Shown one piece after another: positions 2,586 to 63,191 of a DNA stretch of 64,000 bases. Source of the stretch: Xestospongia bergquistia. Its lineage: Eukaryota; Porifera; Demospongiae; Haplosclerida; Petrosiidae. Position 1 is the first letter of the stretch; each line of letters begins with the position of its first letter. A model generated the notes under the pieces. The model was given only the letters and a program-made list of their open reading frames with translations. It had not been told where the DNA came from and did no database searches. Where the stretch lies: NCBI GenBank assembly GCA_963965975.1, contig OZ014418.1, positions 2,492,775-2,556,774 of the forward strand, read 5' to 3'. The translations under genes were made by a program, and so were the position numbers.

Positions 2586-5500
2586 ATGGCGTCTGTGAGT
2601 ATGCGGAAGCCAATAGCTAAACGACTTTTGTCTTATATTAAAAGTACTTCTGAAGACGACAAAGCTAATAAAGTCATCAAGACTATCATTAAAAAATTAA
2701 TCATCAGAGATCAACTAGAACTGGAAAAGGCTCTTGTATGTCAGGGTAAAGAAGCCACTTCGTGTGTTGTTCTTTATCAATCCTCTGAAAATCAAAAGTA
2801 AGAAAAACTATGGTCAATTTTCGTCTCTTTTAATATCTGATTATTTTGACACAATCAAGCAAACTATGTGACCACACTTACACAGCTCACGTCAAGCTAG
2901 TCTTGTGTCTCCAGCCCCTCCTATTAATTTAAGGGATGGACTGGCTATAGAAAACTAATGTCAACCATAGACTATCATGAGATTAGTGTAACTGATCTCT
3001 TTATTCAATTTGGATATCTGCGTCTATTAGTGTTTAGTGTAACTGACACATTAGTACAATATATGTTGTAGTATATAGTATACCACTAGTTTTGTGAACC
3101 AGAGCCAGTTCCTATGACCAAAGATGGATGGGGAAGGGTCTAGGGATTTGTAGTAGAACAACATTGTTTCATGTTTTGTTTTGATCAAATTACAATGCAT
3201 TACAACAAATTAGGCATTTCTATATAAATGTGATGTTTATCATCATAATAATATATTATGTAAGAGGTACAACATATTGTTTTGTTACTCTATGAAGTTT
3301 CATGCTCCTCCCTCCTTGTGATGCTAGTATATAGCAGCATTAATATGAATACGAGAAGACAATATATTCTACAGCATAGCAAATGATCAAAGTGTTGATC
3401 ATTATGTCACATAACTACAGTACATGTTATCTATAAAATAAGAACTACTTTACAAGTACTGCATAGGTCATCAAACATGAACTAGAGAAGCTGTCAAAAT
3501 GGTAAACAGAAATTGGACACATTAGCCTGTAGTACAATCATTTGTTGATTCATGACTTCACTAACAAAAACAATAGTCACAGTTAAAATTAAATGCCACT
3601 TTTAAAAAGTACTAATATTATTTTGATGACAAACTGTTCAGTAATTTCACTGTTGTTATATTATTTGTATACATATTTACAGTTTGAATTAAGGAACATG
3701 TTTGATATACTTTATACAATGTCCATATCTATAGACAGAGTATTTTCTGTTGTTTACTGTTTCTAACTGTTTATATGCTTGTTGTGTTGTTATGATATTT
3801 TTTATAGGATTGGTGTACCTCTCTTTACCTCTTGCCGTGTATGGAGATGGCCTGATTTACAGCACCACTCTCATCTAACTGCAATAAGCAGTTGTAAGTT
3901 ACCTTATGGAAGCAAGAAGAACTATGTTTGCATTAATCCTTACCATTATGAGCTATCAGGTAATGTGTGATTATCTGATTCTCTATGTTTCTTGTCTCAG
4001 TACCATGGTGTGATGACAGTGTTGAAGTGATAGAATGCATTAAAACATGAGATTTTGTTACTATAAGTTAGAAGATAAACATGTGTGTAGAAATGAAGAT
4101 TGACACTGCCATTATATCATTTAGTCTTGTAAATAATAGTGAATACAAAACACAATTAAAATACATTCAGATAAGTAATGCTGTAGCTAAAGAGAACAAC
4201 AGTTTAGAAATACTTGAATGGTGACAGTAATGACTATAAGTTAGGCAGAAAGATATATCAGAATTATGAAAGCTTATAATTAGAAACTAGATGAGTATCA
4301 CTATTGAGGAGGTGACTAAAATAGCAGAAAAGACAATGTCAACTGTACTTAGGGAAATTCATATGCTACAAATTTTGCCTTGTCTAGCAAACAAGCACAA
4401 AGTGTTCTGATATTGGATGATTGAGATTAAATTTTTGAAAAATGGTCTTTCAGAATTCCATTCAAATCAAAAGATTCTTTTCAAATAATAATTATTGTCA
4501 TGATGTTATAAGCTAGTTACTGAATATTACAAACATGATAGTAAAACTTTTATCATCAAGCAAACTCCCTTATACACAAGAACCTAGCCATAGAATATTA
4601 TGTAAAGTGACTTCAAATTAATTATATCATTACTGTTGATATATTTTAAATAGTGAAAGTACCTAATTCTACTTATATTTGTAAATCATAGTAGTAGCCA
4701 TTGCTACACATGTAGTACCCAGCATTCTGAATTATGTTGAGTATATAATTATGTATAACATTGGTATGATTATGGAATAAATAAACTAGATGAAAAACAA
4801 ATTAAATATTTTTTATTTTATATAGATGTCCCTCATCAATATCCAACTGCTGTCCCTCCTTCTCTCCATGAAGGTAAGTTGTCATGACGATAATATCAAG
4901 CATATTAAATATTATTATTTATTTTATATAGATGTCTCTCCATTTTGTTCACCAACTAAATTAACACCCATTGACCATGATAATCAACAATATCCAACTG
5001 CTGTCCCTCCTTCTCTCTATCAAGGTAAGTTGTCATGACGATAATATCAAGCATATTAAATATTATTTTTATTTTATATAGATCTCCCTCCATTTTGTTC
5101 ACCACCTAAATTAACACCCATTGACCATGATAATCATCAATATCCAACTGCTGTCCCTCCTACTCTCTATCAAGGTAAGTTGTCATGACGATAACATCAA
5201 GCATATGAGTACTCTAATAGTCTAAGTGGTGACTAAGTGTTATCACTAGTACTGTTAGTTTGTAAAGGATTATTTTCACTGTTTCTTTTCACAAGGCTCT
5301 CCTGCACCCTATGCTTCATCTGCATTATGTGGGTCGTCAGTGACAACATCAGAAGTACCATTACCTTGTAAGTCCTTGTTGTTACTATATTTTAATTTCT
5401 AATTTTCTTTTAGTAAGCTGTTCACAAATTTTCACGTCTGAGCCTGAAGTTTGGTGTTTTGTCAATTATTATGAACTAAATACTCAAATTGGTGACACTT

Positions 5501-6039
5501 TTAAAACTAGTAACTCTACATTCACTATTGATGGATATACTTCTCCAATTTCTAAAGATCAATATTGTCTTGGCGGTATTTCCAATATCAAACGTGATGA
5601 AGTAACTATAAAGACTAGACGCTACATTGGAAATGGGCTTCATATATTTAAAACTGACAGTAATGTCTACGTTGAGTGCTTGAGTAATTATAGCATTTTT
5701 GTTCAGTCACCTAGTAGTAATATTCGTAATGGTTTAGTTCCTATGGCAGTGACTAAAGTTATTCCTGGAACCTGCTTAGATTTATTTGATTATAAAGACT
5801 TTGCTAATCGTCTAGAAGAAGCTGTTCATTTACAAAATAATGAAGATATTGATCGACTTTATCATTACTGTATTATTAGGATTAGTTTTGTGAAGGGTTG
5901 GGGAGCTGAGTATCGTCGGCCTTTCATCACTAGCGCTCCATGCTGGGTTGAAGTCCATTTAAAAGGTCCTTCTCTTTGGATAGATAACGTAGTCCGATGT
6001 ATGGGTGTGCCTCAAGGTATTGCCCACTCAGACAGTTAA
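2586..6039 (+). CDS. SMAD A, R-Smad (SMAD2/3-like), seven exons
   Basis: Coding exons are 2586-2797, 3808-3959, 4826-4873, 4932-5024, 5082-5174, 5296-5367 and 5414-6039. All introns are GT-AG and the phases agree, giving 431 residues (human SMAD3 has 425). R-Smads are phosphorylated by TGF-beta-family receptors, pair with a co-Smad and act on nuclear DNA. MH1 (about 8-121) shows WRWPDL and CINPYHYEL and keeps the Cys-Cys-Cys-His zinc ligands. The linker (122-223) is Pro/Ser-rich. MH2 (about 235-431) shows WCFVNYYELNTQIGDTF, SNYSIFVQSPSSN and the L3 loop KGWGAEYRR. The C-terminus HSDS keeps the last two serines of SSxS. The DNA-contacting beta-hairpin of MH1 is about five residues shorter than in SMAD3. 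An AATAAA lies at 6059, twenty bases after the stop. Confidence 0.9.
4826..5174 (+). repeat. Duplicated linker-exon cassettes of SMAD A
   Basis: One 48-nt exon and two 93-nt exons, all phase 1-1, are separated by near-identical 57-58-nt introns, so one cassette repeats every 150-151 bp. The 48-nt exon is a 93-nt exon with 45 internal nt deleted, which removes the SPxxxSPTK part and keeps the QYPTAVPP part. Because each cassette is symmetrical, gains and losses never disturb the frame. Confidence 0.9.
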
Positions 6040-7337
6040 CTTATTATTTCCAATCTTTAATAAACATTGATATAACCTGAACTGTTACTTTTATTGCACT
6101 ATTTATCATATTATGGCTCTCCTCTTTTATTTCATTTATCTCATTAAAACAGATTTATTAGAGTTGCAGTGGTTCCTGTCATTTATAATGTTATAAACGT
6201 TGAATGATATTGCTGTTCACAACAGATGAAACCTCTTTACATAGACTAATGTCAGGGGTTGTCACTGTAGCCAGAGCTTGGATTATATTTTGAATATAAT
6301 TAATTCTTCAGTTGTAAATATTCACAACTCAATTAAATTTATCACCAGTATGTACTTAGCATGTATCAAATATGCCTCTACATAATATGCAGCATATTAT
6401 GTACAATGTTTTTAATGTTAGTTTTTCCAAAAACTAGATTACATATGATGTTTGATAGGCAATTCGATTTTTATTGTAAACTGTTTGGATAGTTCATACT
6501 ATTAGTCACAGGACTGGCTAATACTTTTTGTAACAGTTATAAACAAACATCCTTCAAACATTCAAACAAATTCTAAATGTCATAATTTTGTATTTTAAAA
6601 TATACAAATCAGTTTATTAATGTTTATTTATATAAAAGAGTTGATGTGTACTATTGTATTAATTATTATATAGTTGAAAGTAAAACTGCAATTTTTATTG
6701 ACTACATAAAAAAGTGAATATATAAATTGATACATCACTAAACAAGTAATTCTAAGATATGATGACAATCCACCAACATCTTCTGAGGAGTGTTCAGTTG
6801 TATTTGTAATTTCATCATTGCCTGTACTAATAGATCAATACAAAGCACTATATGGATATGTTATTGCTTCTGTATTTTTGGGAACAAAGTCTGATATTTC
6901 CCCTAATATTGCTGAAAAAGTGTTGCTATTATCCTTGATGAATGAACTTTATTTTTTGTAATGATAATAAGTGATAATATATCATTTATGTGATAATATT
7001 AATTTATGGTTACTTAGTGGAAGGTGGAGTAGTATGGTCAACTAAAAGAAACACAAAGACTATAACAGAGTTATAGATTCTAAGAAACATAATACTTTTA
7101 AATGTGTGTGCGTTCATTTGTATATTCTATTATTCTATTCATCCATTGTATTTGTAATAAGAGTTTGAGTGTTATACCTTCATTTTCTACAATTTTAAAA
7201 AATAACAAAGAAATGTTAGTTGTGCTCCTCTTGTATTCAATCATATCATATTAATAACTCCCTATAGACCTACAATAATATCAGATATATAATTTGTAAG
7301 TAGTCTGGGACAGAGGTAATAATGAAAGGAAGTCAAT
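6040..7337. other. SMAD A 3' flank with an unassigned exon-like fragment
   Basis: About 6600-6750 matches the 3' end of the receptor pseudogenes found elsewhere in the window. Positions 6761-6960 hold an open + frame ending in a stop (it contains LPVLIDQYKALYGYVIAS), and the same fragment recurs at 53175-53373. I do not recognise the protein; it is probably a remnant of another gene carried with the duplications. The remainder is AT-rich with nothing recognisable. Confidence 0.45.
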
Positions 7338-8916: not shown

Positions 8917-11900
8917 ATGTCGATGCCAATAACTAAACGACTTTTGTCTCATATTAAAGTCACTTCTGAACATGACCAAGTTAATAAACTTGTCAAGATT
9001 ATCTTATATCGTTTAACTGAAGAAGATCAACTAGAACTGGAAAAAGCTCTTGTATGTCAGGGTAAAGAAGCCACTTCGTGTGTTGTTCTTTATCAATCCT
9101 CTGACAATCAAAAGTAAGAAAAACTATGGTCAATTTTTGTCTCTTTTAATATCTGATTATTTTGACACAATCAAGCAAACTATGTGACCACACTTACACA
9201 GCTCATGTCAAGCTAATCTTGTGTCTCCAGCCCCTCCTATTAGTTTAAGAGATGGACTGGCAATAGAAAACTAATGTCAACCATAGACTATCATGAGATT
9301 AGTGTAACTGAACTGTTTATTCAATTTGGATATCTTGGTCTATTAGTGTTTAGTGTAACTGACACATTAGTACAATATATGTTGTAGTATATAGTATACC
9401 ACTAGTTTTGTGAACCAGAGCCAGTTCCTATGACCAAAGATGGATGGGGAAGGGTCTAGGGATTTGTAAGAGAATAACATATTTGTTTTGATCAAATTAC
9501 AATTCATCACAACAAATTAGGTATTTCTATGTAAATATGATGTGTATCATCATAATGATATATTATGTAAGAGGTACAACATATTGTTTTGTTACTCTAT
9601 GAAGTTTCATTCTCCTCCCTCCTTGTGATGCTAGTATATAGCAGCATTAATATGAGAAGACAATATAGTCTACAGCAAATGATCAAAGTGTTGATCATTA
9701 TGTCACATAACTACAGTACATGTGATCTATAAAATTGAGTTCCAAAACATAAGAACTACTTTACAAGTACTGCCAGAAAAAAATAAGCATAGGCCATCAA
9801 ACATGAACTAGAGAAACTGTCAAAATGATAATAACAGAAATTGGACACATAGCCTGTAGTACAATCATTTGTTGATTCATGACTTCACTAACAAAAACAA
9901 TAGTCACAGTTAAAATTAAAATGCCACTTTTAAAAAGTACTAATATTATTTTGATGACAAACTGTTCAGTAATTTCACTGTTGTTATATTATTTGTATAC
10001 ATATTTACAGTTTGAATTTAGGAACATGTTTGATATACTTTATACAATGTCCATATCTATTGACAGAGTATTTCCTGTTGTTTACTGTTTGCAATTGTTT
10101 ATATGCTTGTAGTGTTGTTATGATATTTTTATAGGATTGGTGTACCTCTCTGTACCTCTTGCCGCGTATGGAGATGGCCTGATTTACAGCACCACTCTCA
10201 TCTAACTGCAATAAGCAGTTGTAAGTTTCCTTATGGACGCAAGGGGAACTATGTTTGCATTAATCCTTACCATTATGAGCTATCAGGTAATGTGTGATTA
10301 TTCTGATTCTCTATGTTTCTTGTCTCAGTACCATGGTGTGATGACAGTGTTGAAGTGATAGAATGCATTAAAACATAGGATTTTGTACTATAAGTTAGAA
10401 GATAAACATGTGTGTAGAAATGAAGATTGACACTGCCATTATATCACTTAGTCCTGTAAATAATAGTGAATACAAAACACAATTAAAATACATTCAGATA
10501 AGTAATGCTGTTAGTTAAAGACAACAACAATTTAGAAATGCTTGAATAGTGACAGTAATGACTATAAGTTAGGCAGAAAGATATATCAGGTTAAAGTGAA
10601 TTATGAGAGCTTATAATTACAAACTAGATGAGTATCACTATTGAGGAGGTGACTAAAATAGCAAAAAAAGACAATGTCAACTGCATTTAGGGAAATTCAT
10701 ATGCTACAAAGTTTGCCATGTCTAGCAAACAAGCACAAAATGTTCTGATATTGGATGATTGAGATTAAATTTTTGAAAAAATGTTAAAAAACAAAAGTCT
10801 TTCTGCCTAACTTATACAAATGATGACACATATAATAACAGTTAGTAATGAAGCAGAATTCCATTCAAATCAAAAGATTCTTTTCAAATAATAATTGTTG
10901 TCATGATGTTATAAGCTAGTTACTGAATATTACAAACATGATAGTAAAACTTTTATCATCAAGCAAACTCCTTTATACACAAGAACCTAGCCATAGAATA
11001 TTATGTAAAGTGACTTCAAATTAATTATATCATTACTGTTGATATATTTTAAATAGTGAAAGTAGGTAATTCTGCTTATATTTGTAAATCATAGTCAAAG
11101 CCATTGCTACACATGTAGTACCAAGCATTATGAATTATGTTGAGTATATAATTATGTATAACATTGGTATAAATAAACTAGATGATAAACAAATTAAATA
11201 TTATTTTTTATTTTATATAGATGTCCCTCAACAATATCCAACTGCTGTCCCTTCTACTCTCCATCAAGGTAAGTTGTCATGACAATAATATCAAGCATAT
11301 TAAATATTATTTTTTATTTTATATAGATGTCTCTCCATTTTGTTCACCAACTAAATTAACACACATTGACCATGATAATCATCAATATCCAACTGCTGTC
11401 CCTCCTTCTCTCCATCAAGGTAAGTTGTCATGACGATAATATCAAGCATATTAAATATTATTTTTTATTTTATATAGATGTCTCTCCATTTTATTCACCA
11501 ACTAAATTAACACACATTGACAATGATAATCATCAATATCCAACTGCTGTCCCTCCTTCTCTCTATCAAGGTAAGTTGTCATGACGATAATATCAAGCAT
11601 ATTAAATATTATTTTTTATTTTATATAGATGTCTCTCCATTTTGTTCACCACCTAAATTAATACGCATTGACCATGATAATCATCAATATCCAACTGCTG
11701 TCCCTCCTACTCTCTATCAAGGTAAGTTGTCATGACGATAACATCAAGTATATGAGTACTCTAATTGTCTGAGTGGTGATTAAGTGTTATCACTAGTACT
11801 GTTAGGTTATAAAGGATTATTTACACTGTTTCTTTTCACAAGGCTCTCCTGCACCCTATGCTTCATCTGCATTATGTGGGTCGTCAGTGACATCATCAGA

Positions 11901-12586
11901 AGTACCATTACCTTGTAAGTCCTTGTTGTTACTAAATTTTAATTTCTAATTTTCTTATAGTAAGCTGTTCATCAATTTTCACGTCTGAGCCTGAAGTTTG
12001 GTGTTTTGTCAATTATTATGAACTAAATACTCAAATTGGTGACACATTTAAAACTAGTAACTCTACATTCACTATTGATGGATATACTTCTCCAATTTCT
12101 AAAGATCAATATTGTCTTGGCGGTATTTCCAATATCAAACGTGACGAAGTAACTATAAAGACTAGACGTCACATTGGAAATGGCCTTCGTATATTTAAAA
12201 CTGACAGTAATGTCTACGTTGAGTGCTTGAGTAATTATAGCATTTTTGTTCAGTCACCTAGTAGTAATATTCGTAATGGTTTAGTTCCTATGACAGTGAC
12301 TAAAGTTATTCCTGGAACCTGCTTAGATTTATTTGATTATAAAGACTTTGCTAATCGTCTAGAAAAAGCTGTTCGTTTACAAAATAATGAAGATATTGAT
12401 CGACTTTATCATTACTGTATTATTAGGATTAGTTTTGTGAAGGGTTGGGGAGCTGAGTATCGTCGGCCTTTCATCACTAGCGCTCCATGCTGGGTTGAAG
12501 TCCATTTAAAAGGTCCTTCTCTTTGGATAGATAATATAGTCCGATGTATGTGTGTGCCTCAAGGTATTGCACACTCAGACAGTTAA
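8917..12586 (+). CDS. SMAD B, R-Smad, eight exons
   Basis: Exons are 8917-9113, 10135-10286, 11221-11268, 11327-11419, 11478-11570, 11629-11721, 11843-11914 and 11961-12586, encoding 457 residues. The ATG used by copies A, E, F and G is destroyed here (ATGG became ATTC at the matching place), so the first usable in-frame ATG is 8917, which shortens the N-terminus by about five residues. MH1 spans about 3-116, the linker 117-249 (one 48-nt and three 93-nt cassettes) and MH2 about 261-457. The helix-2 segment reads ILYRLTEED where classical Smads have the basic KKLKK, so the MH1 nuclear-import and DNA-facing basic patch is weakened. L3 loop KGWGAEYRR and C-terminal HSDS are kept. AATAAA follows the stop. 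Confidence 0.88.
11221..11721 (+). repeat. Linker-exon cassette array of SMAD B (48 + 3 x 93 nt)
   Basis: Four symmetrical phase 1-1 exons lie at a 151-bp period with nearly identical introns. Compared with SMAD A there is one extra 93-nt cassette, the simplest outcome of unequal crossover between cassettes. Confidence 0.9.
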
Positions 12587-17689: not shown

Positions 17690-18664
17690 ATAACAAAAAT
17701 CACAAATGTACTAATCTGCTAATATTATGTCTTTCTGTAAATTTCAAAGAAGCCTTTACAATATTTCCAGATAATACTGTTAACAATATTGGAACATGAC
17801 TGTTTACATAAGACATTAGTTAATTTATTACATAATGTTATTTAGAGGTTATAATTGTTTTTTTTGAAACTCTTCCAGAAATTTGCGGTTGCTAGAAACT
17901 CTCTTTAGTTGATATATAATCTGACTGATTTTTGTACCTATTATGTGTGTCTCACTCTGATCATTACTAAAAGACTTTAACAAACAATAGTCTTATGCAG
18001 ACAAAAACAATAGTACATACCATTATGTGATAAACAGTCTATACAGAAGATTAGTAGTATAACATTAGTGGTAACATTTAGATAATATAACAACATTTTC
18101 ACTATCAATAATATTTAATAATGTACAGAAGAGTAACACAAACATCAATGTCAAATCATCTGGTGTCAATGGTTTGTAGAGTAGCCATATTTACAATATT
18201 TTGATAAGTGAAGTTTTCTGGTCATCTCTGATGAGACATATACATATGTAAATAATGTGATCAACTAGTCCTTGTCAATCATAATATGATAGTTATAATA
18301 AATGCATATCAATTCAACATTGAGAAAACAGTGTATGTCAAGTACTTATTAAGGAGTCACTTTACGAATCATTTGCTACACAACAATTGTTTTACAAGAT
18401 ATTATCAAAAGTAAAAACACTGACTAATTGTCTCTTAATTAGTTTATTGTAAGAAATTATATTTTACTTTTTTGAAAATCAATTATATATAAATTGACAT
18501 TGTTATATAGCCAACTATATATAGTTTATAAAGAACTAATTTTACAGGTTATGAGAGGACATCATGTTTGATCATAAATATTATATGACTGTGGTTTAAT
18601 TCATGTACAGTGGAATGATCAGTTAAGTACATTGTAAGTTACCTGTTTAGTTGTATGTAGTCAA
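17690..18664. other. SMAD C 5' flank, no gene seen
   Basis: This is paralogous to the other SMAD 5' flanks. The 8,468-bp tandem duplication starts inside it at 18325. Confidence 0.6.
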
Positions 18665-18793
18665 GTCTGATGAGGCCACGCCTGCATTACGTAGGCACAC
18701 TTATATCCAATACTTAAATAAAATTATAATCTGTTTGTTAATTTAGGGACGTATCCAGCCACGTCGACCTTTTAAGCAATTCCGTCTGTGAGT

Positions 18794-21700
18794 ATGTCGA
18801 TGTCAATAACTAAACGACTTTTGTCTCATATAAAAGTCACTTCTGAACATGACCAAGTTAATAAACTGGTCAAGACTATCTTAAATAGTTTAGCCAACAT
18901 TGATCTACTAGAACTGGAAAAGGCTCTTGTATGTCAGGGTAAAGAAGCCACTTTGTGTGTTCTTCTTTATCAATCCCCTGACAATCAAAAGTAAGAAAAA
19001 CTATGATCAATTTTCGTCTCTTTTAATATCTGATTATTTTGACACAATCAAGCAAACTATGTGACCACATTTACACAGCTCATGTCAAGCTAATCTTGTG
19101 TTTCCAGCCCCTCCTATTAATTTAAGGGATGGACTGGCTATATAAAACTAATGTCAACTTTACACTATCATGAGATTAGTGTAACTGACTTCTTTATTCA
19201 ATTTGGATATCTTGGTCTATTAGTGTTTAGTTTAACTGACACATTAGTACAATATATGTTGTAGTATATAGTAGACCACTAGTTTTGTGAACCAGAGCCA
19301 GTTCCTATGACCAAAGTAGATGGGGAAGGGTCTAGGGATTTGTAAAGGAACAACATATTGTTTTATGTTTTGTTTTGATCAAATTACAATGCATCTCAAC
19401 AAATTAGGTATTTCTATATAAATATGATGTGTATCATCATAATGATATATTATGTAAGAGTTACAACATATTGTTTTGTTACTCTATGAAGTTTCATTCT
19501 CCTCCCTCCTTGTTATGCTAGTATATAACATTAATATGAGAAGACAATATAGTCTACAGCAAATGATCAAAGTGTTGATCATTATGTCACATAACTCACT
19601 ACATGTGATTTATAAAATTGAGTTCCAAAACATAAGAACTACTTTACAAGTACTGCCAGAAAAAAATAAGCATAGGCCATCAAACATGAACTAGAGAAAC
19701 TGTCAAAATGATAATAACAGAAATTGGACACATAGCCTGTAGTACAATCATTTGTTGTTTCATGACTTCACTAGCAAAAACAATAGTCACAGTTAAAATT
19801 AAAATGCTACTTATAAAAAAATTCTAATATTATTTTGATGACAAACTGTTCAGTAATTTCACTGTTGTTATATTATTTGTATACATATTTACAGTTAGAA
19901 TTAAGGAACATGTTTGATAGTTTATATAATGTCCATATCTATAGACAAAGTATTTTCTGTTGTTTACTGTTTCTAATTGTTTATATGCTTGTAGTGTTGT
20001 TATGATATTTTTATAGGATTGGTACACCTCTCTTTACCTCTTGCCGTGCATGGAGATGGCCTGATTTAGAGCACCCGTATCATTTAACTGCAATAAGCAG
20101 TTGTAATTTTCCTCGTGGAGGCAAGAAGAACTATGTTTGCATTAATCCTTACCATTATGAACTATCAGGTAATGTGTGATTATTCTGATTCTCTATGTCT
20201 CTTGTCTCAGTACCATGGTGTGATGACAGTGTTGAAGTGATAGAATGCATTAAAACATAAGATTTTGTTACTATAAGTTAGAAGATAAACATGTGTGTAG
20301 AAATGAAGATTGACACTGCCATTATATCACTTAGTCTTGTAAATAATAGTGAATACAAAACACAATTAAAATACATTCAGATAAGTAATGCTGTTAGTTA
20401 AAGAGAACAACAGTTTAGAAATACTTGAATGATGACAGTAATGACTTAAGTTAGGCAGAAAGATATATCAGAATTATGAGAGCTTATAATTAGAAACTAG
20501 ATGAGTATCACTATTGAGGAGGTGACTAAAATAGCAGAAAAGACAATGTCAACTGTATTTAGGGAAATTCATATGCTACAAATTTTGCCTTGTCTAGCAA
20601 ACAAGCACAAAGTGTTCTGATATTGGATGATTGAGATTAAATTTTTGAAAAATAGTTAAAAACAAAAGTCTTTCTGCCTAACTTATACAAATGATGACAC
20701 ATATAATAACAGTTAGTAATGAAGCAGAATTCTGTTCAAATCAGAAGATTCTTTTCAGATAGTAATTATTGTCATGATGTTATAAGCTAGTTACTGAATA
20801 TTACAAACATGATAGTAAAACCTTTATCATCAAGCTAACTCCTTTATACACAAGAACCTAGCCATAGAATATTATGTAAAGTGACTTCAAATTAATTATA
20901 TCATTACTGTTGATATATTTTAAATAGTGAAAGTAGGTAATTCTGCTTATATTTGTAAATCATAGTCAAAGACATTGCTACACATGTAGTACCTAGCATT
21001 CTGAATTATGATGAGTATATAGTTATGTATATATGTGGAATAAATAAACAAGATGATAAACTAATTAAATATTATTTTTTATTTTATATAGATGTCCCTC
21101 ATCAATATCCAACTGCTGTCCCTCCTTCTCACTATCAAGGTAAGTTGTCATGATGATAATATCAAGCATATTAAATATTATTTTTTATTTTATATAGATG
21201 TCTCTCCATTTTGTTCACCAACTAAATTAACACACATTGACCATGATAATCATCAATATCCAACTGCTGTCCCTCCTTCTCTCTATCAAGGTAAGTTGTC
21301 ATGACGATAATATCAAGCATATTAAATATTATTTTTTATTTTATATAGATGTCTCTCCATTTTGTTCACCTCCTAAATTAATACGCATTGACCATGATAA
21401 TCATCAATATCCAACTGCTGTCCCTCCTTCTCTCTATCAAGGTAAGTTGTCATGACGATAACATCAAGCATATGAGTACTCTAATAGTCTGAGTGGTGAT
21501 TAAGTGTTATCACTAGTACTGTTAGGTTATAAATGATTATTTACACTGTTTCTTTTCACAAGGCTCTCCTGCACCCTATGCTTCATCTGCATTATGTGGG
21601 TCGTCAGTGACAACATCAGAAGTACCATCACCTTGTAAGTCCTTGTAGTTACTATATTTTAATTTCTAATTTTCTTTTAGTAAGCTGTTCATCAATTTTC

Positions 21701-22306
21701 ACGTCTGAGCCTGAATTTTGGTGTTTTGTCAATTATTATGAACTAAATACTCAAATTGGTGACACATTTAAAACTAGTAACTCTACATTCACTATTGATG
21801 GATATACTTCTCCAATTTCTAAAGATCAATGTTGTCTTGGCGGTATTTCCAATATCAAACGTGACGAAGTAACCATAAAGGCTCGACGCTACATTGGAAA
21901 GGGCCTTCATATATTTAAAACTGACAGTAATGTCTATGTTGAATGCCTGAGTAATTATAGCATTTTTGTTCAGTCACCTAGTAGTAATATTCGTAATGGT
22001 TTAGTTCCTATGACAGTGACTAAAGTTATTCCTGGAACCTGCTTAGATTTATTTGATTATAAAGACTTTGCTAATCGTTTAGAAGAAGCTGTTCGTTTAC
22101 AAAATAATGAAGATATTGATCGACTTTATCATTACTGTATTGTTAGGATTAGTTTTGTGAAGGGTTGGGGAGCTGAGTATCGTCGGCCTTTCATCACTAG
22201 CACTCCTTGCTGGGTTGAAGTCCATTTAAAAGGTCCTTCTCTTTGGATAGATAATATAGTCCGATGTATGTGTGTGCCTCAAGGTATTGCACACTCAGAC
22301 AGTTAA
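18794..22306 (+). CDS. SMAD C, R-Smad, seven exons
   Basis: Exons are 18794-18990, 20017-20168, 21092-21139, 21198-21290, 21349-21441, 21563-21634 and 21681-22306, encoding 426 residues. As in copy B the upstream ATG is lost and the start is the downstream ATG. MH1 (about 3-116) keeps the zinc ligands, but the helix-2 region reads ILNSLANID, with none of the KKLKK basic cluster. The linker has one 48-nt and two 93-nt cassettes. MH2 shows GWGAEYRR and ends HSDS. In MH2 this copy has Cys where D and the other copies have Tyr (DQCCLGG versus DQYCLGG) because of the base at 21831. The frame is intact throughout. Confidence 0.88.
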
Positions 22307-44647: not shown

Positions 44648-47600
44648 ATGGCTTCTCCGAGTATTTTATCTTTGTCAAAGCCAGTAACTAAACGACTTTT
44701 GTCTCATATTAAAGTCACTTCTGAAGATTACCAATTTGATAAAGTCATCAAGACTATTTTAAAGAAGTTAAGCAACAAAAATCTACTAGAACTTGAAAAG
44801 TCTCTTATATGTCAGGATAAAGAAGCCACTTTGTGTGTTGTTCTTAGTCAATCCTCTGATAGTCAAAGGTAAGAAAAACTATGGTCAATTTTCTTTTCTT
44901 AAAATCTGATTGTTTTGATACAATCAAGTAAACTATGTGACCACACTTACACAGCTCATATCAAGCTAGTCTCATCCCAGACCTATTTGCAAAGTCTGGT
45001 CACACGTTTGTATTCCCAGTAAGGAATGTGGCGCCGGTGTTGGTATGCAATTAGAGGTAGTGAGAAATATGAATATCGTTAAATTGAAGTGTGGAAGCGT
45101 ATGCATGGCTACTCTTCAAGAAATCTGCTACTCCTGCTGCTCTGACCTAAGCAGTGAGCCCAAATATCATGTTATTATAAGAAACAAGAACGATGAATAT
45201 TCCTGTCTATACTCCATAGTTGTAGATGTGCTAAGCAATGAGAAGCTTGAAATACAACCAGAGAATATTCGCTAAAAAACTATTTTGTAAGTTTTTCTCT
45301 CTTTGAGAGTAAATCCAACTTCTTTGGCAACTTCGTTGATTTTAAAGACAATGTTTGCAGCTTTCAACACTTCAAATTTAATAATATTCATATTTCACAC
45401 TACCATTAATTGCATACTAACACCCGCATAATGATATATAATGTAACATATTGTTTTGTTACTCTAAAGTTTCATGCTTCTCCCTCCTTGTGATACTAGT
45501 ATATAGCATTAATACGAGAAGACAATATAGTCTACAGCAAATGATCAAAGTGTTCATCATTATGTCACATAACTACAGTACATGTGATCTATAGTACATG
45601 TAAAATTGAGTTACAAAATATAAGAACTTTTTAGGACTACTACCAGATAAAATAAGCATAGGCCATCAAACATGAACTAGAAAAGCTGTCAAAATGATGC
45701 TAACAGAAATTGGACACATTAGATTAGCCTGTAGTACAATCATTTGTTGCTTCACGACTTCACATACCAATAACAATAATCACAGTTCAAATTTAAATGT
45801 CACTTTTAATAAGTACTAGTTTTATTTTTAATGACAAACTGTTCAGTAATTTCACTGTTGCTATATTATTTGCATACATATATACAGTTTGAATTTAAGA
45901 ACGTTTTTAATACTTTATACAATCTCCATATCTATAGACAGAGTATTTTCTGTTGTTTACTGTTTCTAATTGTTTATATGCTTGTAGTGTTGTTATGATA
46001 TTTTTTATAGGATTGCTGTACCTCACCTTATCTCTTGTCGTGCATGGAGATGGCCTGATTTACAGAACCCCCTTGAATTAACTCCCACAAGCAGTTGTCA
46101 TTTTCTTTATAAAAGCAAGAAGAAGGATGTTTGCATTAATCCTTACCATTATCAGCTTGTCAAGATACCAGGTAATGTGTGATTATTCTGAAATATTAGT
46201 GTTTCTTGTCTCAGTACCAGGGTGTGACAGTGTTGAAGTGATAGAATGCATTAAAACAAAGGATTTTGTTGCTATAAGTTAGAAGATAAACGTGTGTAGA
46301 AATGAAGATTGACACTGCCATTATATCATTTAGTCTTGTAAATAATAGTGAATACAAAACACAATTAAAATACGTTCAGAGAAGTAATGCTGTAGCTAGA
46401 AAGAACAACAGTTTAGAAATACTTGAATGGTGACAGTAATGATTTATAAGAATTATGAGAGCTTATAATTAGAAACTAGATGAGTATCACTATTGAGGAG
46501 GTGACTAAAATAGCAGAAAAGACAATGTCAACTGTATTTAGGGAAATTCATATGCTACAAAGTTTGCCATGTCTAGCAAACAAACACAAACTGTTCTGAT
46601 ATTGGATGATTGAGATTAAATTTTGAAAAATGGTCTTTCTGCCTAAATTATACAAATGATGACACATATAATAACAGTTAGTAATGAAGCAGAATTTCGT
46701 TCAAATCAAAAGATTCTTTTCAAATAATAATTGTTGTCATGATGTTATAAGCTAGTTACTGAATATTACAAACATGATAGTAAAACTTTTATCATCAAGC
46801 AAACTCCCTTATATACAAGTACCTAGCAATAGAATTTATGTAAAGTGACTTCAAATTAATTATATCATTACTGTTGATATATTTTAAATAGTGAAAGTAG
46901 GTAATTCTGCTTATATTTGTAAATCATAGTCAAAGACATTGCTACACATGTAGTACCTAGCATTCAGAATTATGATAAGTATATAGTTATGTACAGCATT
47001 GGTATAATTATGGAATAAATAAACTAGACCTTAAGCAAATTATATATTATTTTTTATTTTATATAGATATTCCTCCATGTTTGTCACCACCTAAATTAAC
47101 ACATATTGACCATGTTAGTCATCAATATCCTACTGCTGTCCCTCCTACTCTCTATCAAAGTAAGTTGTCATGACGATAACATCAAGCATATGAGTACTCT
47201 ATTGGTCTGAGTGGTGATTAAGTTTTATCACTAGTACTGTTAGGTTGTAAAGGATTATTTTCATTGTTTCTTTTCACAAGGCTCTCCTGCACCCTATGCT
47301 TCATCTGCATCATGTGGATCATCAGTGACATCATTAGAAGTACCATCACCTTGTAAGTCCTTGTTGTTACTATATTTTAATTTATAATTTTCTTTTAGTA
47401 AGCTGTTCACTAAATCACATGTCTGAGCCTGAATTTTGGTGTTTTGTCAATTATTATGAACTAAACACTCAAATTGGTGACACTTTTAATGCTAGTAACT
47501 GTATATTCATAGTTGATGGATATACTTCTCCAATTTCTAAAAATCAATACTGTCTTGGCTGTTTTTCCAATACCAAACGTGATGAAGTGACCATAAAGAC

Positions 47601-48021
47601 TCGACGCTACATTGGAAATGGCCTTCGTATATTTAAAACTGGCAGTAATGTCTATGTTGAATGCTTGAGTAATTATAGCATTTTTGTTCAGTCACCCAAT
47701 AGTAATGTTCGTAATGGTTTAGTTCCCATGACAGTGACTAAAGTTTTTCCTGGAACCTACTTAGATTTATTTGATTATAAAGACTTTGCTAATCGTTTAG
47801 AAGAAGGTGTTCATTTACGTGATGAAGATATTGATCGACTTTATCGTCACTGTATTATTAGGATTAGTTTTGTGAAGGGTTGGGGAGCTGATTATCGTCG
47901 GCCTTTCATCACTAGAACTCCATGCTGGGTTGAAGTTCGCTTAAATGGTCCTTCTCTTTGGTTAGATAATGTAATCCGATGTTTGGGTGTGCCTCAAGTT
48001 ATTGCCCACTCTGACAGTTAA
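44648..48021 (+). CDS. SMAD E, R-Smad with a single linker cassette
   Basis: Exons are 44648-44868, 46011-46171, 47067-47159, 47281-47352 and 47399-48021, encoding 389 residues. The N-terminus is slightly longer (MASPSILSLSKPVTK). Helix 2 has KKLSNKN, closer to the classical basic patch than in B-D. Exon 2 carries three extra codons at its end (YHYQLVKIPG), shared with copy G. Only one 93-nt linker exon is present, and its last base is A, so the junction codes Ser, not Gly. MH2 has GWGADYRR and ends HSDS. One codon fewer in the loop before DEDID distinguishes E-G from A-D. Intron 1 contains a foldback insertion at 45035. Confidence 0.88.
45035..45425. mobile_element. Foldback element in SMAD E intron 1
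   Basis: Arms of about 40 bp (from ggtgttggtatgcaatta on the left, complementary to the right end at about 45385-45425) flank a 300-bp core. The similarity extends inward with more mismatches: both arms, read outward-in, can encode MNIVKL/MNIIKF-like starts. The left half contains a 76-codon frame (45045-45275) with no recognised domain. It is absent from intron 1 of the other SMAD copies. Confidence 0.65.
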
Positions 48022-50126: not shown

Positions 50127-52806
50127 ATGGCGTCTGCGAGTATGTCGATGCCAATAACTAAACGACTTTTGTCAGATACAAAAATCACTTCTGAAGATAA
50201 CCAAATTAATAAAATTGCCAAGACTTTCTTAAAAAAGTTAAGCGACAAAGATCTACAAGAACTGGAAAAGTCTCTTACATGTCAGGGTAAAGAAGCCACT
50301 TTGTGTGTTGTTCTTTATCAATCTGACAATCAAAGGTAAGAAAAACTATGGTCAATTTTCTTCTCTTTTAATATCAGATTATTTTGACACAATCAAGCAA
50401 ACTATGTGACCACACTTACACAGCTCACTAATCTTGTGTCTCCAGCCCCTCCTATTAATTTAAGGGATGGACTGGCTATATAGAACTAATGTCAACCATA
50501 GACTATCATGAGATTAGTGTAACTGATATCTTTATTTAATTTGCTTATCTTGGTCTATTAGTGTTTAGTTTAACTGACACATTAGTACAATATATGTTGT
50601 AGTATATAGTATACCACTAGTTTTGTGAACCAGAGCCAGTTCCTATGACCAAAGTAGATGGGGAAGGGTCTAGGGATTTGTAAAGGAACAACATATTTGT
50701 TTTGATCAAATTACAATTCATCACAACAAATTAGGTATTTCTATGTAAATATCATGCGTATCATCATAATGATATATTATGTAAGAGGTACAACATATTG
50801 TTTTGTTACTCTATGAAGTCTCATGCTCCTTCCTTCTTGTGATGCTAGTATATAACATTAATATGAGAAGACAATATAGTCTACAGCATACCAAATGATC
50901 AAAGTGTTGATCATTATGTCACATAACTACAGTACATGTGATCTATAAAATTGAGTTCCAATATATAAGAACTACTTTACCAGTACTGCCAGATAAAATA
51001 AGAATAGGCCATCAAATTTGAACTAAAGAAGCTGTCAAAATGATAATAACAGAAATTGGACACATTAGCCTGTAGTACAGTCATTTGTTGATTCTCGTAA
51101 CAAAAACAATAGCCACTTTTAAAAAGTACTAATTTTATTTTGATGGCAAACTGTTTAGTAATTTCAATGTTGCTATATTTGTATATATGTGACCATAAAT
51201 ACGAAAATGGTACCTAACGCGCAAACAAATTTCGAGTGAACGCTTGCGTATAAATTGTTGCTATGCAGCCATCTTAAACAGGAAGCTATTAAAATTCATA
51301 ATGTATCAAGATCAATGATTGACCTTCATGAATACCAAATAACATTGACTTCCTGTTCAAGATGGATGCGTAGCAATCGTTTCTACACAAACATTTGTTC
51401 AAAATTCACTTGCGCGTTAGGTACCATTTTCGTATTTATGGTCACATATATTTACAGTTTGAATTAAGGAACATGTTTGATACTTTATACAATGTCCATA
51501 TCTATAGACAAAGTATTTTCTGTTGTTTACCGTTTCTAATTGTTTGTATGCTTGTAGCGTTGTTATGATATTTTTTTTTAATAGGATTGCTGTACCTCAT
51601 TTTATCTCTTGCCATGCATGGAGATGGCCTGATTTAAAGCACCCCTATCATCTAACTGCAATAAGAAGTTGTCAGTTTCCTTATAAAAGCCAGAGGAACT
51701 ATGTTTGCATTAATCCTTACCATTATGAGCTACCGGGTAATGTGTGATTATTCTGATTCTTTGTTTCTAGTCTCAGTACCAGTAACATTGGTATAATTAT
51801 GGAATAAATAAACTAGATGATAAGTAAATTAAATATTATTATTTTGTATATAGATGTCCCTCCAATTTTGTCATCACCTAAATTAAAACTCGTTGACCGT
51901 AATAATCATCAAAATCCAACTGCTGTCCCTCCTACTCTCTATCAAGGTAAGTTGTCATGACGATAACATCAAGCATATGAGTACTCTAATAGTCTGAGTG
52001 GTGATTTTTATCACTAGTATTGTTAGTTTATAAAGGATTATTTACACTGTTTCTTTTCATAAGGCACTTCTGCACCCAATGCTTCATCTGCATTAAGTGG
52101 GTCGTCAATGACATCATCAAAAGTACCATCACCTTGTAAGTCCTTGTTGTTACTATATTTTAATTTATAATTTTCTTTTTTAGTAAACTGTTCACTAATT
52201 TTCACGTCTGAGCCTGAAGTTTGGTGTTTTGTCAATTATTATGAACTAAATACTCAAATTGGTGACACTTTTAAAACTAGTAACTCTACATTCACTATTG
52301 ATGGATATACTTCTCCAATTTCTAAAGATCAATATTGTCTTGGCTGTTTTACCAATACTAAACGTCGTGAAGTAACCATTAAGACTAGACGCTACATTGG
52401 AAATGGGCTTCGTATATTTAAAAATGGGAGTAATGTCTATGTTGAATGCTTGAGTAATTATAGCATTTTTGTTCAGTCACCTAGTAGTAATCTTCGTAAT
52501 GGTTTAGTTCCTATGACAGTTACTAAAGTTATTCCTGGAAACTTCTTAGATTTATTTGATTATAAAGACTTTGCTAATCGTTTAGAAGAAGCTGTTCGTT
52601 TACATAATGAAGATATTGATCGACTTTATCGTTACTGTATTATTAGGATTAGTTTTGTGAAGGGTTGGGGAGCTGACTATTGTCGGCCTTTCATCACTAG
52701 CGCTCCATGCTGGGTTGAAGTCCATTTAACAGGTCCTTCTCTTTGGATAGATAATGTAGTCAGATGTTTTGGTGTGCTTCAAGGTGTTGCCCACTCAGAC
52801 AGTTAA
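50127..52806 (+). CDS. SMAD F, R-Smad with an altered L3 loop
   Basis: Exons are 50127-50335, 51585-51736, 51854-51946, 52064-52135 and 52184-52806, encoding 382 residues, the shortest of the array. Intron 2 has shrunk to 117 nt (about 870-900 nt elsewhere), and one 93-nt linker cassette remains, with diverged residues (ILSSPKLKLVDRNN). The zinc ligands and WRWPDL are kept. In the MH2 L3 loop the usual GWGAEYRR reads GWGADYCR: the Arg that helps set SMAD2/3-type receptor specificity is Cys because CGT became TGT at 52681. The tail is HSDS. An upstream in-frame ATG at 50082 lies before the conserved tttag and is probably intronic. Intron 1 carries a MITE at 51184. Confidence 0.87.
51184..51450. 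mobile_element. 267-bp MITE in SMAD F intron 1
   Basis: Near-perfect terminal inverted repeats of about 40 bp (left end tatatgtgaccataaatacg, right end its complement) flank a core that is itself partly palindromic. The insertion splits a TATA-rich site that is intact in the other SMAD copies (for example 9990-10005), so the duplicated target is probably TATA or TA. There is no coding capacity. Confidence 0.85.
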
Positions 52807-54439: not shown

Positions 54440-57400
54440 ATGGCTTCTCTATCTTTATCGAAGCCAGTAACTACACGACTTTTGTCTCATATTAAAGTCT
54501 CTTCTGAAGATTACCAATTTGATAAAGTCATCAAGAATATTTTAAAGAAGTTAAGCAACAAAGATCTACTAGAACTAGAAAAGTCTCTTGTATGTCAGGA
54601 TAAAGATGCCACTTTGTGTGTTGTTTTTATTCAATCCTCTAACAGTCAAAGGTAAGAAAAGAGTATGATCTATTTTCTTCTGTATTAATATCTGATTATT
54701 TTGACATGATTAAGCAAACTATGTGACCACACTTACACAGCTCATGTTAAGCTAATCTTGTGTCTCCAACCCCTCCTATTAATTTAAGGGATGGACTGGC
54801 TATAGAAAACTAATGTCAACCATAGACTATCATGAGATTAGTATAACTGAACTGTTTATTCAATTTGGATATCTTGGTCTATTAGTGTTTAGTGTAACTG
54901 ACACATTAGTACAATATATGTTGTAGTATATAGTATACCACTAGTTTTGTGAACCAGAACCAGTTCCTATGACCAAAGATGGATGGGGAAGGGTCTAGGG
55001 ATTTGTAAGAGAATAACATATTTATTTTGATCAAATTACAATTCATCACAACAAATTAGGCATTTCTACGTAAACATCATGTGAATCATTGTAATGATAT
55101 ATTATATAAGAGCTATAACATATTGTTTTATGTTTTGTTTTGATCAAATTACAATGTATCACAACAAATTAGGCATTTCTATATAAATGTGATGTGTATC
55201 ATCATAATGATATATTATGTAAGAGGTACAACATATTGTTTTGTTACTCTATGAAGTTTCATTCTCCTCCCTCCTTGTGATGCTAGTATATAACATTAAT
55301 ATGAGAAGACAATATAGTCTACAGCAAATGATCAAAGTGTTGATCATTATGTCACATAACTACAGTACATGTGATCTATAAAATTGAGTTCCAAAATATA
55401 AGAACTACTTTACGAGTACTGCCAGATAAAATAAGAATAGGCCATCAAATATGAACTAGAGAAGCTGTCAAAATGATAATAACAGAAATTGGACACATTA
55501 GCCTGTAGTACAATCATTTGTTGTTTCATGACTTCACTAACAAAAACAATAGTCACAGTTAAAATTAAAATGCCACTTTTAAAAAGTACAGTCAACCCTC
55601 CCTTATCCGGGCAGAATGGGACCCAGGGGTGCCCGTAAATAAGAAATATCCGTAACTTAAAAAAGCAACATATACACATACTAGCATGATTTTTATGAAG
55701 TATGAGGCTTGAAATATGATGTTATTTCAGTCTGAGTTAGTGAGTTATCCCGTTTTTGTCCAGCAGTGGTCATCCAGTTCTTAACCAGCATCAAGTGAGC
55801 TGGATCAGTTCCTTGACATTCTAACCATTGTAGAGCAATGCCAAATGCCTTGTATGTGCTAGCATTGGATACAGTGGGACAATTGTCAGGCTTGTCTTCT
55901 GACTCCTTTCCTGATAAGTCAGGTTCTCCACTTACTTGGGCGACAATTTCATCATCAGTCATTAACTGTGGGATTAGCGCTTGCTGTCACATGCATCTCG
56001 ATTTTGTCTTTATTCTTCCAAATATCGCCCAGCCAACTATCGTCGACTTAGCCACTCCAAAACGGTCTGAAACAGCCCTCTGCGACTTTCCCTGTCGTAA
56101 CTCTGCAAGTTTCTTTTCGAGAGACACGATGTTACGCTTCCTTTTTGAAGCCATGGTGTTCTGTGCAGCTAATAATTTTGCGAATGCGCGCGCATAAACT
56201 ACTGCCCGGTAGAGGGAGGTGCCCGTATATTGGAGGTCTGGATAAGGGAGGTTTGACTGTACTAATATTATTTTGATGACAAACTGTTCACTTTTGCTAT
56301 GTTATTTGTATACATATTTACAGTTTGAATTAAGGAACATGTTCGATACTTTATACAATGTCCATATCTATATAGACAAAGTATTTTCTGTTGTTTAGTG
56401 TTTCTAATTGTTGTTGTGATATTTTTATAGGATTGCAATACCTCACCTTATCACTTTCCGTGCATGGAGATGGCCTGATTTACAGAACCCCTATGATCTA
56501 ACTCCAATAAGCAGTTGTCATTTTCCTTATAGAAGCAAGAGGAACTATGTTTGCATTAATCCTTACCATTACCAACTTGTCAAGATACCAGGTAATGTGT
56601 GATTATTCTGAAATATTAGTGTTGAAGACAAACGTGTGTAGAAATGAAAATTAACACTGCCATTATATCATTTAAATAATAGTGAATACAAAACACAATT
56701 AAAATACATTCAGATAAGTAATGCTGTTAATTAAAGACAACAACAATTTAGAAATGCTTGAATGGTGACAGTAATGACTATAAGTTAGGCAGAAAGATAT
56801 ATCAGATTAAAGTGAATTATGAGAGCTTATAATTAGAAACTAGATGAGTATCACTATTGAGGAGGTGACTAAAACAGCAGAAAAGACAATGTCAACTGTA
56901 TTTAGGGAAATTCATATGCTACAAATTTTGCTTTATCTAGCAAAAAACACAAAATGTTCTGATATTGGATGATTGAGATTAAACTTTTGAAAAATTATTA
57001 AAAAGAAAAATTCTTTCTGCCTAACTTATACAGATGATGACACATATAATAACAGTTAGTAATGAAGCAGAATTCTGTTCAAATCAAAGGATTCTTTTCA
57101 AATAATAATTGTTGTCATGATGTTATAAGCTAGTTACTGAATATTACAAACATGATAGTAAAACTTTCATCATCAAGCAAACTCCCTTATACACAATAAC
57201 CTAGCCATAGAATATTATGTAAAGTGACTTCAAATTAATTATATCATTACTGTTGATATATTTTAAATAGTGAAAGTAGGTAATTCTGCTTATATTTGTA
57301 AATCATAGTCAAAGCCATTGCTACACATGTAGTACCTAGCATTCTGAATTATGTTGAGTATATAGTTATATATAATTATGGAATAAATGAACTAGATGAT

Positions 57401-58992
57401 AAACAAATTAAATATTATTTTTTATTTTATATAGATGTCTCTCCATTTTGTTCACCAACTAAATTAACACCCATTGACCATGTTAGTCATCAATATCCAA
57501 CTGCTATCCCTCCTTCTCTCTATCAAAGTAAGTTGTCATGGCGATAATATCAAGCATATTAAATATTATTTTTTATTTTATATAGATCTCCCTCCATTTT
57601 GTTCACCACCTAAATTAACACACATTGACCATGATAATCATCAATATCCAACTGCTGTCCCTCCTTCTCTCTATCAAGGTAAGTTGTCATGACGATAATA
57701 TCAAGCATATTAAATATTATTTTTATTTTATATAGATCTCCCTCCATTTTGTTCACCACCTAAATTAACACCCATTGACCATGTTAGTCATCAATATCCA
57801 ACTGCTGTCCCTCCTACTCTCTATCAAGGTAAGTTGTCATGACGATAATATCAAGCATATTAAATATTATTTTTATTTTATATAGATCTCCCTCCATTTT
57901 GTTCACCACCTAAATTAACACCCATTGACCATGTTAGTCATCAATATCCAACTGCTGTCCCTCCTTCTCTCTATCAAGGTAAGTTGTCATGACGATAATA
58001 TCAAGCATATTAAATATTTTTTTTGATTTTATATAGATCTCAATCCATTTTGTTCACCACCTAAATTAACACACATTGACCATGATAATCATCAATATCC
58101 AACTGCTGTCCCTCCTACTCTCTATCAAGGTAAGTTGTCATGACGATAACATCAAGCATATGAGTACTCTAATAGTCTAAGTGGTGATTAAGTGTTATCA
58201 CTAGTACTGTTAGTTTGTGAAGGATTATTTTCACTGTTTCTTTTCACAAGGCACTTCTGCACCCAATGCTTCATCTGCATCATGTGGGTCGTCAGTGACA
58301 TCATCAGAAGTACCATCAACTTGTAAGTTCTTGTTGTTACTATATTTTAATTTATAATTTTCTTTTTAGTAAGCAGTTCACTAATTTATACGTCTGAGCC
58401 TGAAGTTTGGTGTTTTGTCAATTATTATGAACTAAATACTCAAATTGGTGACACTTTTAAAACTAGTAATTCTTCATTCACTATTGATGGATATAGTTCT
58501 CCAATTTCTAAAGATCAATATTGTCTTGGCTGTTTTTCCAATATCAAACGTGATGAAGTAACCATAAAGACTCGATACTTCATTGGAAATGGCCTTCGTA
58601 TATTTAAAACTGACAGTAATGTCTACGTTGAGTGCTTGAGTAATTATAGCATTTTTGTTCAGTCACCTAGTAGTAATGTTCGTAATGGTTTAGTTCCTAT
58701 GAAAGTGACTAAAGTTATTCCTGGAGCCTGCTTAGATTTGTTTGATTATAAAGACTTTGCTAATCGTCTAGAAGAAGCTGTTCGTTTACATAAAGAAGAT
58801 ATTGATCGACTTTATCATCTCTGTATTATTAGGATTAGTTTTGTGAAGGGTTGGGGAGCTGAGTATCGTCGGCCTTACATCACTAGCACTCCATGCTGGG
58901 TTGAAGTCCATTTAAATGGTCCTTCTCTTTGGATAGATAATGTAGTCCGATGTTTGGGTGTGCATCAAGATATTGTCCACTCAGACAGTTAA
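54440..58992 (+). CDS. SMAD G, R-Smad with five linker cassettes
   Basis: Exons are 54440-54651, 56431-56591, 57435-57527, 57586-57678, 57736-57828, 57886-57978, 58037-58129, 58251-58322 and 58370-58992, encoding 510 residues, the longest of the array. MH1 spans about 7-124 (KKLSNKD, WRWPDL, YVCINPYHYQL with the three-codon extension shared with E). The linker spans 125-303, of which 155 residues come from five 93-nt cassettes rich in SP/TP sites. MH2 spans about 315-510, with GWGAEYRR, and the tail reads IVHSDS. The first cassette ends in A, so the first junction codes Asn. Intron 1 holds a pogo/Tigger-like element (55589-56259). No frame break was seen. Confidence 0.87.
55589..56259 (-). 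mobile_element. 671-bp pogo/Tigger-like DNA transposon, internally deleted
   Basis: Terminal inverted repeats (cagtcaaccctcccttatcc, with one mismatch at the other end) are flanked by TA at 55587 and 56260. Paralogous introns show the single-TA empty site (for example 9928-9940). On the minus strand the element still has the transposase N-terminus, a CENP-B-type HTH near 56152 (KRKRNIVSLE, LRQG, SQRAVSDRFGVAKSTIVGW), and the C-terminal tail (55962-55693; ALQWLECQGTD, ITSYFKPH). The DDE catalytic core between them is gone, so it can only move with help from another copy. Confidence 0.9.
57435..58129 (+). repeat. Linker-exon cassette array of SMAD G (5 x 93 nt)
   Basis: Five phase 1-1 exons at 150-151-bp spacing. 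Units 2-5 share the LPPFCSPPK-type opening, apart from the last (LNPFCSPPK), and units 1, 3 and 4 share HVSHQY, a pattern expected from repeated local duplication. No 48-nt cassette is present. Confidence 0.92.
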
Positions 58993-61897: not shown

Positions 61898-61938
61898 CAT
61901 CCATCCATCCATCCATCCATCCATCCATCCATCCATCC

Positions 61939-61990: not shown

Positions 61991-61993
<3 letters not shown>

Positions 61994-63040: not shown

Positions 63041-63098
63041 TATGTAATAAATAAACTAGATAATAAGCAAATTAAATATTATTTTTTATTTTGTATAG

Positions 63099-63191
63099 AT
63101 GTCTCTCCATTTTGTTCACCACCTAAATTAACACACATTGACCATGATAATCATCAATATCCAACTGCTGTCCCTCCTACTCTCTATCAAG
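63099..63191 (+). CDS. SMAD H, isolated linker exon (partial gene)
   Basis: A 93-nt phase 1-1 linker exon with intact acceptor (tgtatag) and donor (gtaagt), coding SPFCSPPKLTHIDHDNHQY and the usual PTAVPPTLYQ. No MH1 exons lie upstream in the window: the preceding sequence belongs to the receptor flank. The intron after it resumes the usual SMAD sequence at about 63967, so a 72-nt exon and MH2 are expected beyond the window. It may be a truncated gene or a relic. Confidence 0.7.

Follow-up and report, generated by a model that had tools for sequence, protein, structure and literature searches.

A 64,000-bp stretch of the genome of the demosponge Xestospongia bergquistia (C8:2492775-2556774, contig OZ014418.1; hereafter the window) carries seven intact Smad genes, part of a tandem array of nine intact copies that keep the MH2 domain and have lost from the MH1 domain the hairpin residues that read DNA. 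Across the array, purifying selection acts on MH2 and site-wise diversifying selection on MH1, with gene conversion as a caveat. On the strength of these sequences we propose, at about even probability, that the array encodes lineage-specific, DNA-hairpin-less modulators derived from a receptor-regulated Smad (R-Smad), which would work through MH2 instead of serving as additional transcription factors.

The seven genes in the window (A-G) lie on the plus strand between positions 2586 and 58992. Each comprises two MH1 exons, one or more linker exons, a 72-nt linker exon, and an MH2 exon, with exon 1 ending in phase 2 and exon 2 in phase 1. Splice junctions are GT-AG with matching phases, and none of the seven models contains an internal stop. 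The initial annotation, which described seven intact plus-strand genes ending in HSDS, is borne out by splice models that read a full-length MH1-linker-MH2 protein in all seven, and its count of at least seven extends to nine with copies I and J beyond the window. The nine models encode 354-510 amino acids with a single, terminal stop, end in HSDS, and align over both MH1 and MH2. Spliced copy A, the one copy scanned, matches the Pfam profiles of MH1 (1.4e-23) and MH2 (9.3e-53), and whole-genome searches, covering 146.5 Mb in 21 contigs, returned the MH2 exons of A-G at E-values of 3.6e-53 to 2.7e-50, which excludes a chance match. The eighth gene that had been thought to start at the right edge is instead a linker exon belonging to copy H, a pseudogene truncated at its 5' end that lacks both MH1 exons, contains stops, has lost the HSDS tail, and leaves an MH2 remnant past the edge.

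Start-to-start distances between intact copies are 4.3-18.4 kb from A to I and 110 kb from I to J. Copies C and D lie in a direct tandem duplication of 8,468 bp with four mismatches and no gaps, so either could be an assembly duplicate. That the whole array is an artefact multiplying one or two genes is nevertheless a very slim prospect: the near-identity of C and D (four differences in 8,468 bases) would suit it, whereas the other copies are far apart, with MH1 nonsynonymous divergence (dN) reaching 0.233 among 9 of 36 pairs listed, and intron lengths and linker counts differ from copy to copy.

The whole-genome MH2 search gave 17 matches. Ten lie in the C8 array and one each on C3, C1 (27.3 Mb, C1a) and C12 (6.745 Mb, C12a); a Smad4-like gene on C12 (C12b) contributes two, one per exon, and the remaining two are broken fragments on C1. 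The MH1 search likewise gave 17, nine of which fall on exon 2 of array genes; a match on C5 has no adjoining MH2 match. Outside the array the genome holds three dispersed R-Smad genes (C12a, one Smad1/5, and one Smad2/3) and one Smad4. Inspection of the 17 MH2 matches by eye recognised no inhibitory Smad (I-Smad), and no separate I-Smad search was made. The two broken C1 fragments are mutually alike and Smad4-like by eye, and their flanks seem common by eye, as if spread by a repeat.

Phylogeny supported the suggested lineage-specific tandem expansion of R-Smad-derived genes, placing the array in a single clade with support of 100 in both the MH2 tree (Smad4 as outgroup) and the MH1 tree, and C12a as its sister (96 and 100, respectively). 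The MH2 domains of A, G, and J are 38-41% identical to human Smad4 and 58-60% identical to C12a; they are thus nearer C12a than a common-mediator Smad (Co-Smad), and the S-x-S tail kept in all nine copies sets the array apart from I-Smads. The proposed SMAD2/3 type is weak: in MH2 array plus C12a joins the genome's Smad2/3 (81) inside Smad2/3 (65), but in MH1 they stand beside Smad1/5 (74); both trees have few references and long branches. By these sequence comparisons the array appears to derive from an R-Smad like C12a, and we class it as R-Smad-derived without assigning it to the Smad2/3 or Smad1/5 subtype. The expansion had also been described as one of the transducing layer, not of ligands or receptors. 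Receptors show no expansion in the data seen (at least two GS-domain matches); for ligands there are 12 transforming growth factor beta (TGF-beta) ligand-domain matches, four of them in tandem on C8. These four ligand genes, on the minus strand of the Smad array chromosome, follow one another in ~10.4-kb steps, three with equal score and frame length.

The DNA-binding hairpin of MH1 is nearly invariant across animals, its bases being read by Arg74, Gln76, and Lys81, which are strictly conserved in R-Smads and Smad4, according to passages of PMC5727232 that name Drosophila Smad2 as an exception. The Cys64-Pro84 interval spans 19 residues in canonical MH1 domains and in C12a, 14 in eight of the nine array copies, and 13 in F. 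The gap falls over LQVSH when copy C is compared by phmmer with MH1 chains of the Protein Data Bank, and over GRLQV in all array copies when aligned by MAFFT. Under both placings Gln76 is deleted in all nine copies; Arg74 is deleted or replaced by Q, depending on the placing, and Lys81 is replaced by I, again in nine of nine. All three residues are retained in C12a, C3, C1a, and the Smad4-like C12b, the C12a hairpin being altered at other positions. The notion of simply more signal-transducing transcription factors finds no support here, the DNA-reading residues being gone from every copy.

An intron inside the hairpin shares its position and phase among the array, C12a, and C1a. The exon before it ends ...RLQVSQ(K) in C12a and ...RLQVSH(R) in C1a, and the next resumes with K. 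Because the intron has an identical place and phase, it was exon 1 that lost these residues, towards its end. A scan of intron 1 in the nine copies for a hairpin-restoring micro-exon yielded no candidate peptide identical in at least six copies; motif-like candidates occur in five (A one, F one, G three, I two, J one; none in B, C, D, and E), all different. The most hairpin-like, a 24-nt candidate in copy A, owes its existence to a deletion that no other copy has. A highly conserved block of the intron was also rejected as a coding exon, since a 2-base gap interrupts it in copy E.

The zinc ligands C64, C109, C121, and H126, named in part of PMC5727232, are intact in all nine copies. WRWPDL is likewise retained throughout. 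In helix 2 the basic sequence KKLKK, which we take to be a nuclear import element, is shortened to KKL in five copies (A, E, F, G, and I) and missing from the other four (B, C, D, and J). The PPxY linker motif typical of R-Smads is found in the linker region of all three dispersed R-Smads (C3, C1a, and C12a) and in none of the nine array copies. In MH2, residues K375, K420, D300, and D450 (Smad2 numbering), presumably the phospho-tail pocket and trimer contacts of Smad2, are present in nine of nine, and the tail reads S-x-S, with H replacing the first S of SSxS. The L3 loop, whose subtype code we assume to be R and T in Smad2/3 and H and D in Smad1/5, shows R at the first of these positions in eight copies (C in F) and F or Y at the second in all nine.

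The complete domain plan, the S-x-S tail, and the presumed trimer-interface and phospho-tail pocket residues would also suit a set of ordinary R-Smads multiplied to raise dosage or to divide tasks, binding DNA through other MH1 surfaces or partner Smads. The loss of the base-reading hairpin residues from every copy and the reduction or absence of KKLKK speak against this explanation, which we judge unlikely.

Selection differs between the two domains. Averaged over 36 pairs, MH1 has a dN of 0.175 and a synonymous divergence (dS) of 0.148 (ratio 1.18), and MH2 a dN of 0.060 and a dS of 0.106 (ratio 0.57); the 72-nt linker exon has a mean pairwise ratio of 1.60, with few changes. MH1 dN exceeds the divergence of intron 1 (0.126) and intron 2 (0.088), measured over columns held by at least seven of the nine copies. 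Codon models were fitted with custom likelihood code that matches iqtree2 log-likelihoods (-1534.06 and -1684.77). The MH1 dN/dS ratio (omega) of 1.13 is on average not different from 1, and model M2a improves on M1a by a twofold log-likelihood difference (2dlnL) of 27.4, assigning 28% of sites an omega of 3.6. With each exon on its own tree, the same comparison gives 2dlnL of 16.5 for exon 1 and 9.5 for exon 2. After removal of ragged ends and row D, the MH1 value is 28.8, reached by none of 165 M1a simulations (maximum 9.26). Neutrality on the array tree predicts ~11.8 stops in MH1, and none is observed. The selected sites, numbered from the zinc ligands, appear to lie mostly in helix 2 and the following loop, near His101, and near 114-117. 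MH2 has an omega of 0.38 (2dlnL of 25.7 versus omega = 1).

These values bear on the alternative of decaying duplicates, in which unequal crossing-over makes transient copies, MH1 is a relaxed spacer kept open for MH2, and no new function arises. Such decay would account for a mean MH1 omega near 1, the pseudogenisation of copy H, the lost first start codon in B-D (in B the original ATG is gone and the next in-frame ATG serves as start), the lost linker acceptor in I, and the recency of C and D; it is at odds with the rejection of a conserved plus neutral-only model for MH1, the zinc ligands and WRWPDL kept in nine of nine, and the low MH2 omega. We regard decay as rather improbable.

Linkers differ between copies, as the initial annotation stated, mainly in the copy number of one module: three, four, three, three, one, one, and five in A-G, none in I, and one in J. 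The module exon, 93 nt and sometimes 48 or 84, is of phase 1-1 and is embedded in a 150-151 bp repeat unit; since the repeat carries the whole exon, gain or loss of a module keeps the frame. In copy I the sole module has AA replacing the AG acceptor. Linker S/T-P sites number from two to nine per copy. The tandem repetition of a unit with an entire frame-neutral exon inside Smad genes (window 11221-11721 and equivalents) amounts to exon-level minisatellite evolution.

Under the proposed role as hairpin-less modulators, a type I receptor would phosphorylate the array Smad tail, and the phosphorylated proteins would join Smad trimers through MH2 without contributing a DNA-reading hairpin. They could then tune or dampen canonical Smad output as damper, decoy, or cofactor-adaptor, with the diversifying MH1 surface and variable linkers setting partner choice per copy. 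More tentatively, MH1 may have been re-purposed from DNA reading to binding fast-changing protein partners, as a decoy or recognition repertoire, with linker length set by exon copy number; we offer this as a possibility.

Several points weigh against the modulator proposal and the selection pattern behind it. Flanking stretches of 500 bases diverge by 0.282 upstream and 0.207 downstream, both above MH1 dN, which speaks against a simple comparison of MH1 with its flanks; perhaps the flanks are partly non-homologous. In MH2, M2a is also preferred over M1a (2dlnL of 14.7), with 2% of sites at omega >1. The codon tests assume no gene conversion, and gene conversion or recombination is likely because the MH1 and MH2 trees differ in detail; separate exon trees lessen the problem and do not abolish it. 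The L3 loop matches neither Smad2/3 nor Smad1/5, so docking to the receptor could have altered or disappeared. For MH2, the AlphaFold model was unusable (predicted local distance difference test score of 29.6) and was set aside. The gene models are predictions from splice-site conservation.

A further alternative is a recognition or conflict system, in which an intracellular repertoire of Smads diversifies in response to proteins by which parasites or symbionts attack Smad signalling, or serves self-recognition. The tandem arrangement, site-wise diversifying selection concentrated in MH1, variation in linker modules, and recent duplication would suit such a system; a tandem family next to the array that has a Frizzled-domain-like part, however, may mean merely a duplication-prone locus, and we think this scenario quite improbable. 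That family, divergent and seven-transmembrane (7TM)-like, occurs in tandem inside and on both sides of the Smad array; a block of ~0.6-1.4 kb recurs at no fewer than 12 places. Its Frizzled-domain-like part matches PF01392 at E 6.5e-5, below the cut-off. Frizzled identity of these minus-strand neighbours was rejected; PF01534 recovers none of them, and their 7TM part does not match Frizzled.

Other sequences lie in and around the window (Table 1). A gene upstream of copy A, which we liken to CINP, has no Pfam support above the cut-off; pieces of it recur in later units, indicating that the duplication unit carried part of the gene. A 588-codon frame between B and C matches RVT_1 (2.4e-7; the query start is inexact and lies outside the match) and is probably a non-LTR (long terminal repeat) retrotransposon. 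The D-E gap holds an SRCR-domain exon (PF00530, 1e-8). On C9, cathepsin-like exons form a tandem cluster; the three active-site exons read, from a set of 76 matches, all have Cys and therefore do not encode silicateins, which lends no support to a siliceous sponge. Among Piwi matches the sponge protein Piwi-A (7kx7) ranked second, behind a Piwi-like protein 1.

Table 1. Coordinates of array genes and other features (window positions unless a contig is given)
Feature	Position	Strand	Exons or details	Length
Smad gene A	2586..6039	+	2586-2797, 3808-3959 (MH1); 4826-4873, 4932-5024, 5082-5174 (linker modules); 5296-5367; 5414-6039 (MH2, HSDS)	431 aa
Smad gene B	8917..12586	+	8917-9113, 10135-10286, 11221-11268, 11327-11419, 11478-11570, 11629-11721, 11843-11914, 11961-12586	457 aa
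Smad gene C	18794..22306	+	18794-18990, 20017-20168, 21092-21139, 21198-21290, 21349-21441, 21563-21634, 21681-22306	426 aa
Smad gene D (near-identical tandem copy of C)	27262..30774	+	27262-27458, 28485-28636, 29560-29607, 29666-29758, 29817-29909, 30031-30102, 30149-30774	426 aa
Smad gene E	44648..48021	+	44648-44868, 46011-46171, 47067-47159, 47281-47352, 47399-48021	389 aa
Smad gene F	50127..52806	+	50127-50335, 51585-51736, 51854-51946, 52064-52135, 52184-52806	382 aa
Smad gene G	54440..58992	+	54440-54651, 56431-56591; 57435-57527, 57586-57678, 57736-57828, 57886-57978, 58037-58129 (linker modules); 58251-58322; 58370-58992	510 aa
Copy H linker-module exon (pseudogene)	63099..63191	+	ends inferred from fixed module length
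Copy H MH2 remnant	C8:2556976-2557467		past right edge
Smad copy I, intact	C8:2565647-2568901		outside window
Smad copy J, intact	C8:2675642-2678754		outside window
Direct tandem duplication carrying C and D	18324..35260	+	C8:2511098-2519566 and 2519566-2528034	8,468 bp
7TM-like family	16847-17497, 41926-42177, 48864-49492, 59849-61188	-	genome C8 2485037-2682853
CINP-like gene	659-1474	+
CINP-like gene fragments	7304-7627, 42713-43165, 49607-49855	+
Retrotransposon-like frame	14740-16506	+	between B and C	588 codons
SRCR-domain exon	39487-39750	+	D-E gap
Four TGF-beta ligand genes	C8:312780-344346	-	tandem
Cathepsin-like exons	C9:1502757-1523415	+	tandem cluster
Broken MH2 fragments	C1:20166856-20167041, C1:6674508-6674705

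Smads form the narrow, conserved waist of TGF-beta signalling. If the reading proposed here is true, a tandem family without the hairpin, with MH2 kept and the remainder diversifying, shows that evolution can turn the transducing layer itself to new uses, and the array offers a direct test of pathway restraint in a lineage without a recognised inhibitory Smad. In the open-licence PubMed Central literature we found no tandem Smad array or hairpin-less Smad family, which is not proof of absence; what we did not find in print there is an array of nine intact hairpin-less Smads whose linker exon can repeat and whose MH1 diversifies.

Smad duplication in demosponges is already known, for example from Amphimedon and Halisarca. 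Amphimedon queenslandica has ten Smads (three Smad4, three Smad1/5, two Smad2/3, and two unclassified) according to sections of PMC3169577 and PMC5684314, and two R-Smads only in a passage of PMC2657120. It too shows Smad duplication in a sponge, and it lacks Smad6/7 (PMC5684314, in part); the sections of PMC3169577 and PMC5684314 concerned make no mention of a tandem array, hairpin loss, or selection. Halisarca dujardinii also has several R-Smads of a single clade, HduSMAD1a-d, and no Smad6, but these are four genes sister to Smad1/5/8, with no array described in the relevant portion of PMC8235796. Portions of the same sources report no I-Smad in Amphimedon and glass sponges (PMC5684314) or in Halisarca (PMC8235796). 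The pea aphid Medea and Mad paralogues (five and two) are another lineage-specific duplication of animal Smads, although mostly of Co-Smads and with neither array nor hairpin loss mentioned in the corresponding passages of PMC2826372. The glass-sponge Smad2/3 resembles the array in that DNA-binding residues are reported as not predicted; it is, however, a single gene, and glass-sponge Smad1/5 and Smad4 keep those residues, as given in part of PMC5684314.

With I-Smads (Smad6/7) the array may share a damping role, but it keeps the S-x-S tail and a zinc-site MH1. In build the array resembles R-Smads (Smad1/5/8 and Smad2/3), with which it shares the MH1-linker-MH2 plan, the zinc site, an MH2 recognised by profile, and the S-x-S tail, and from which it differs in a hairpin five or six residues shorter, the missing three base-reading residues, the absent PPxY, F or Y at the second L3 position, and HSDS for SSxS.

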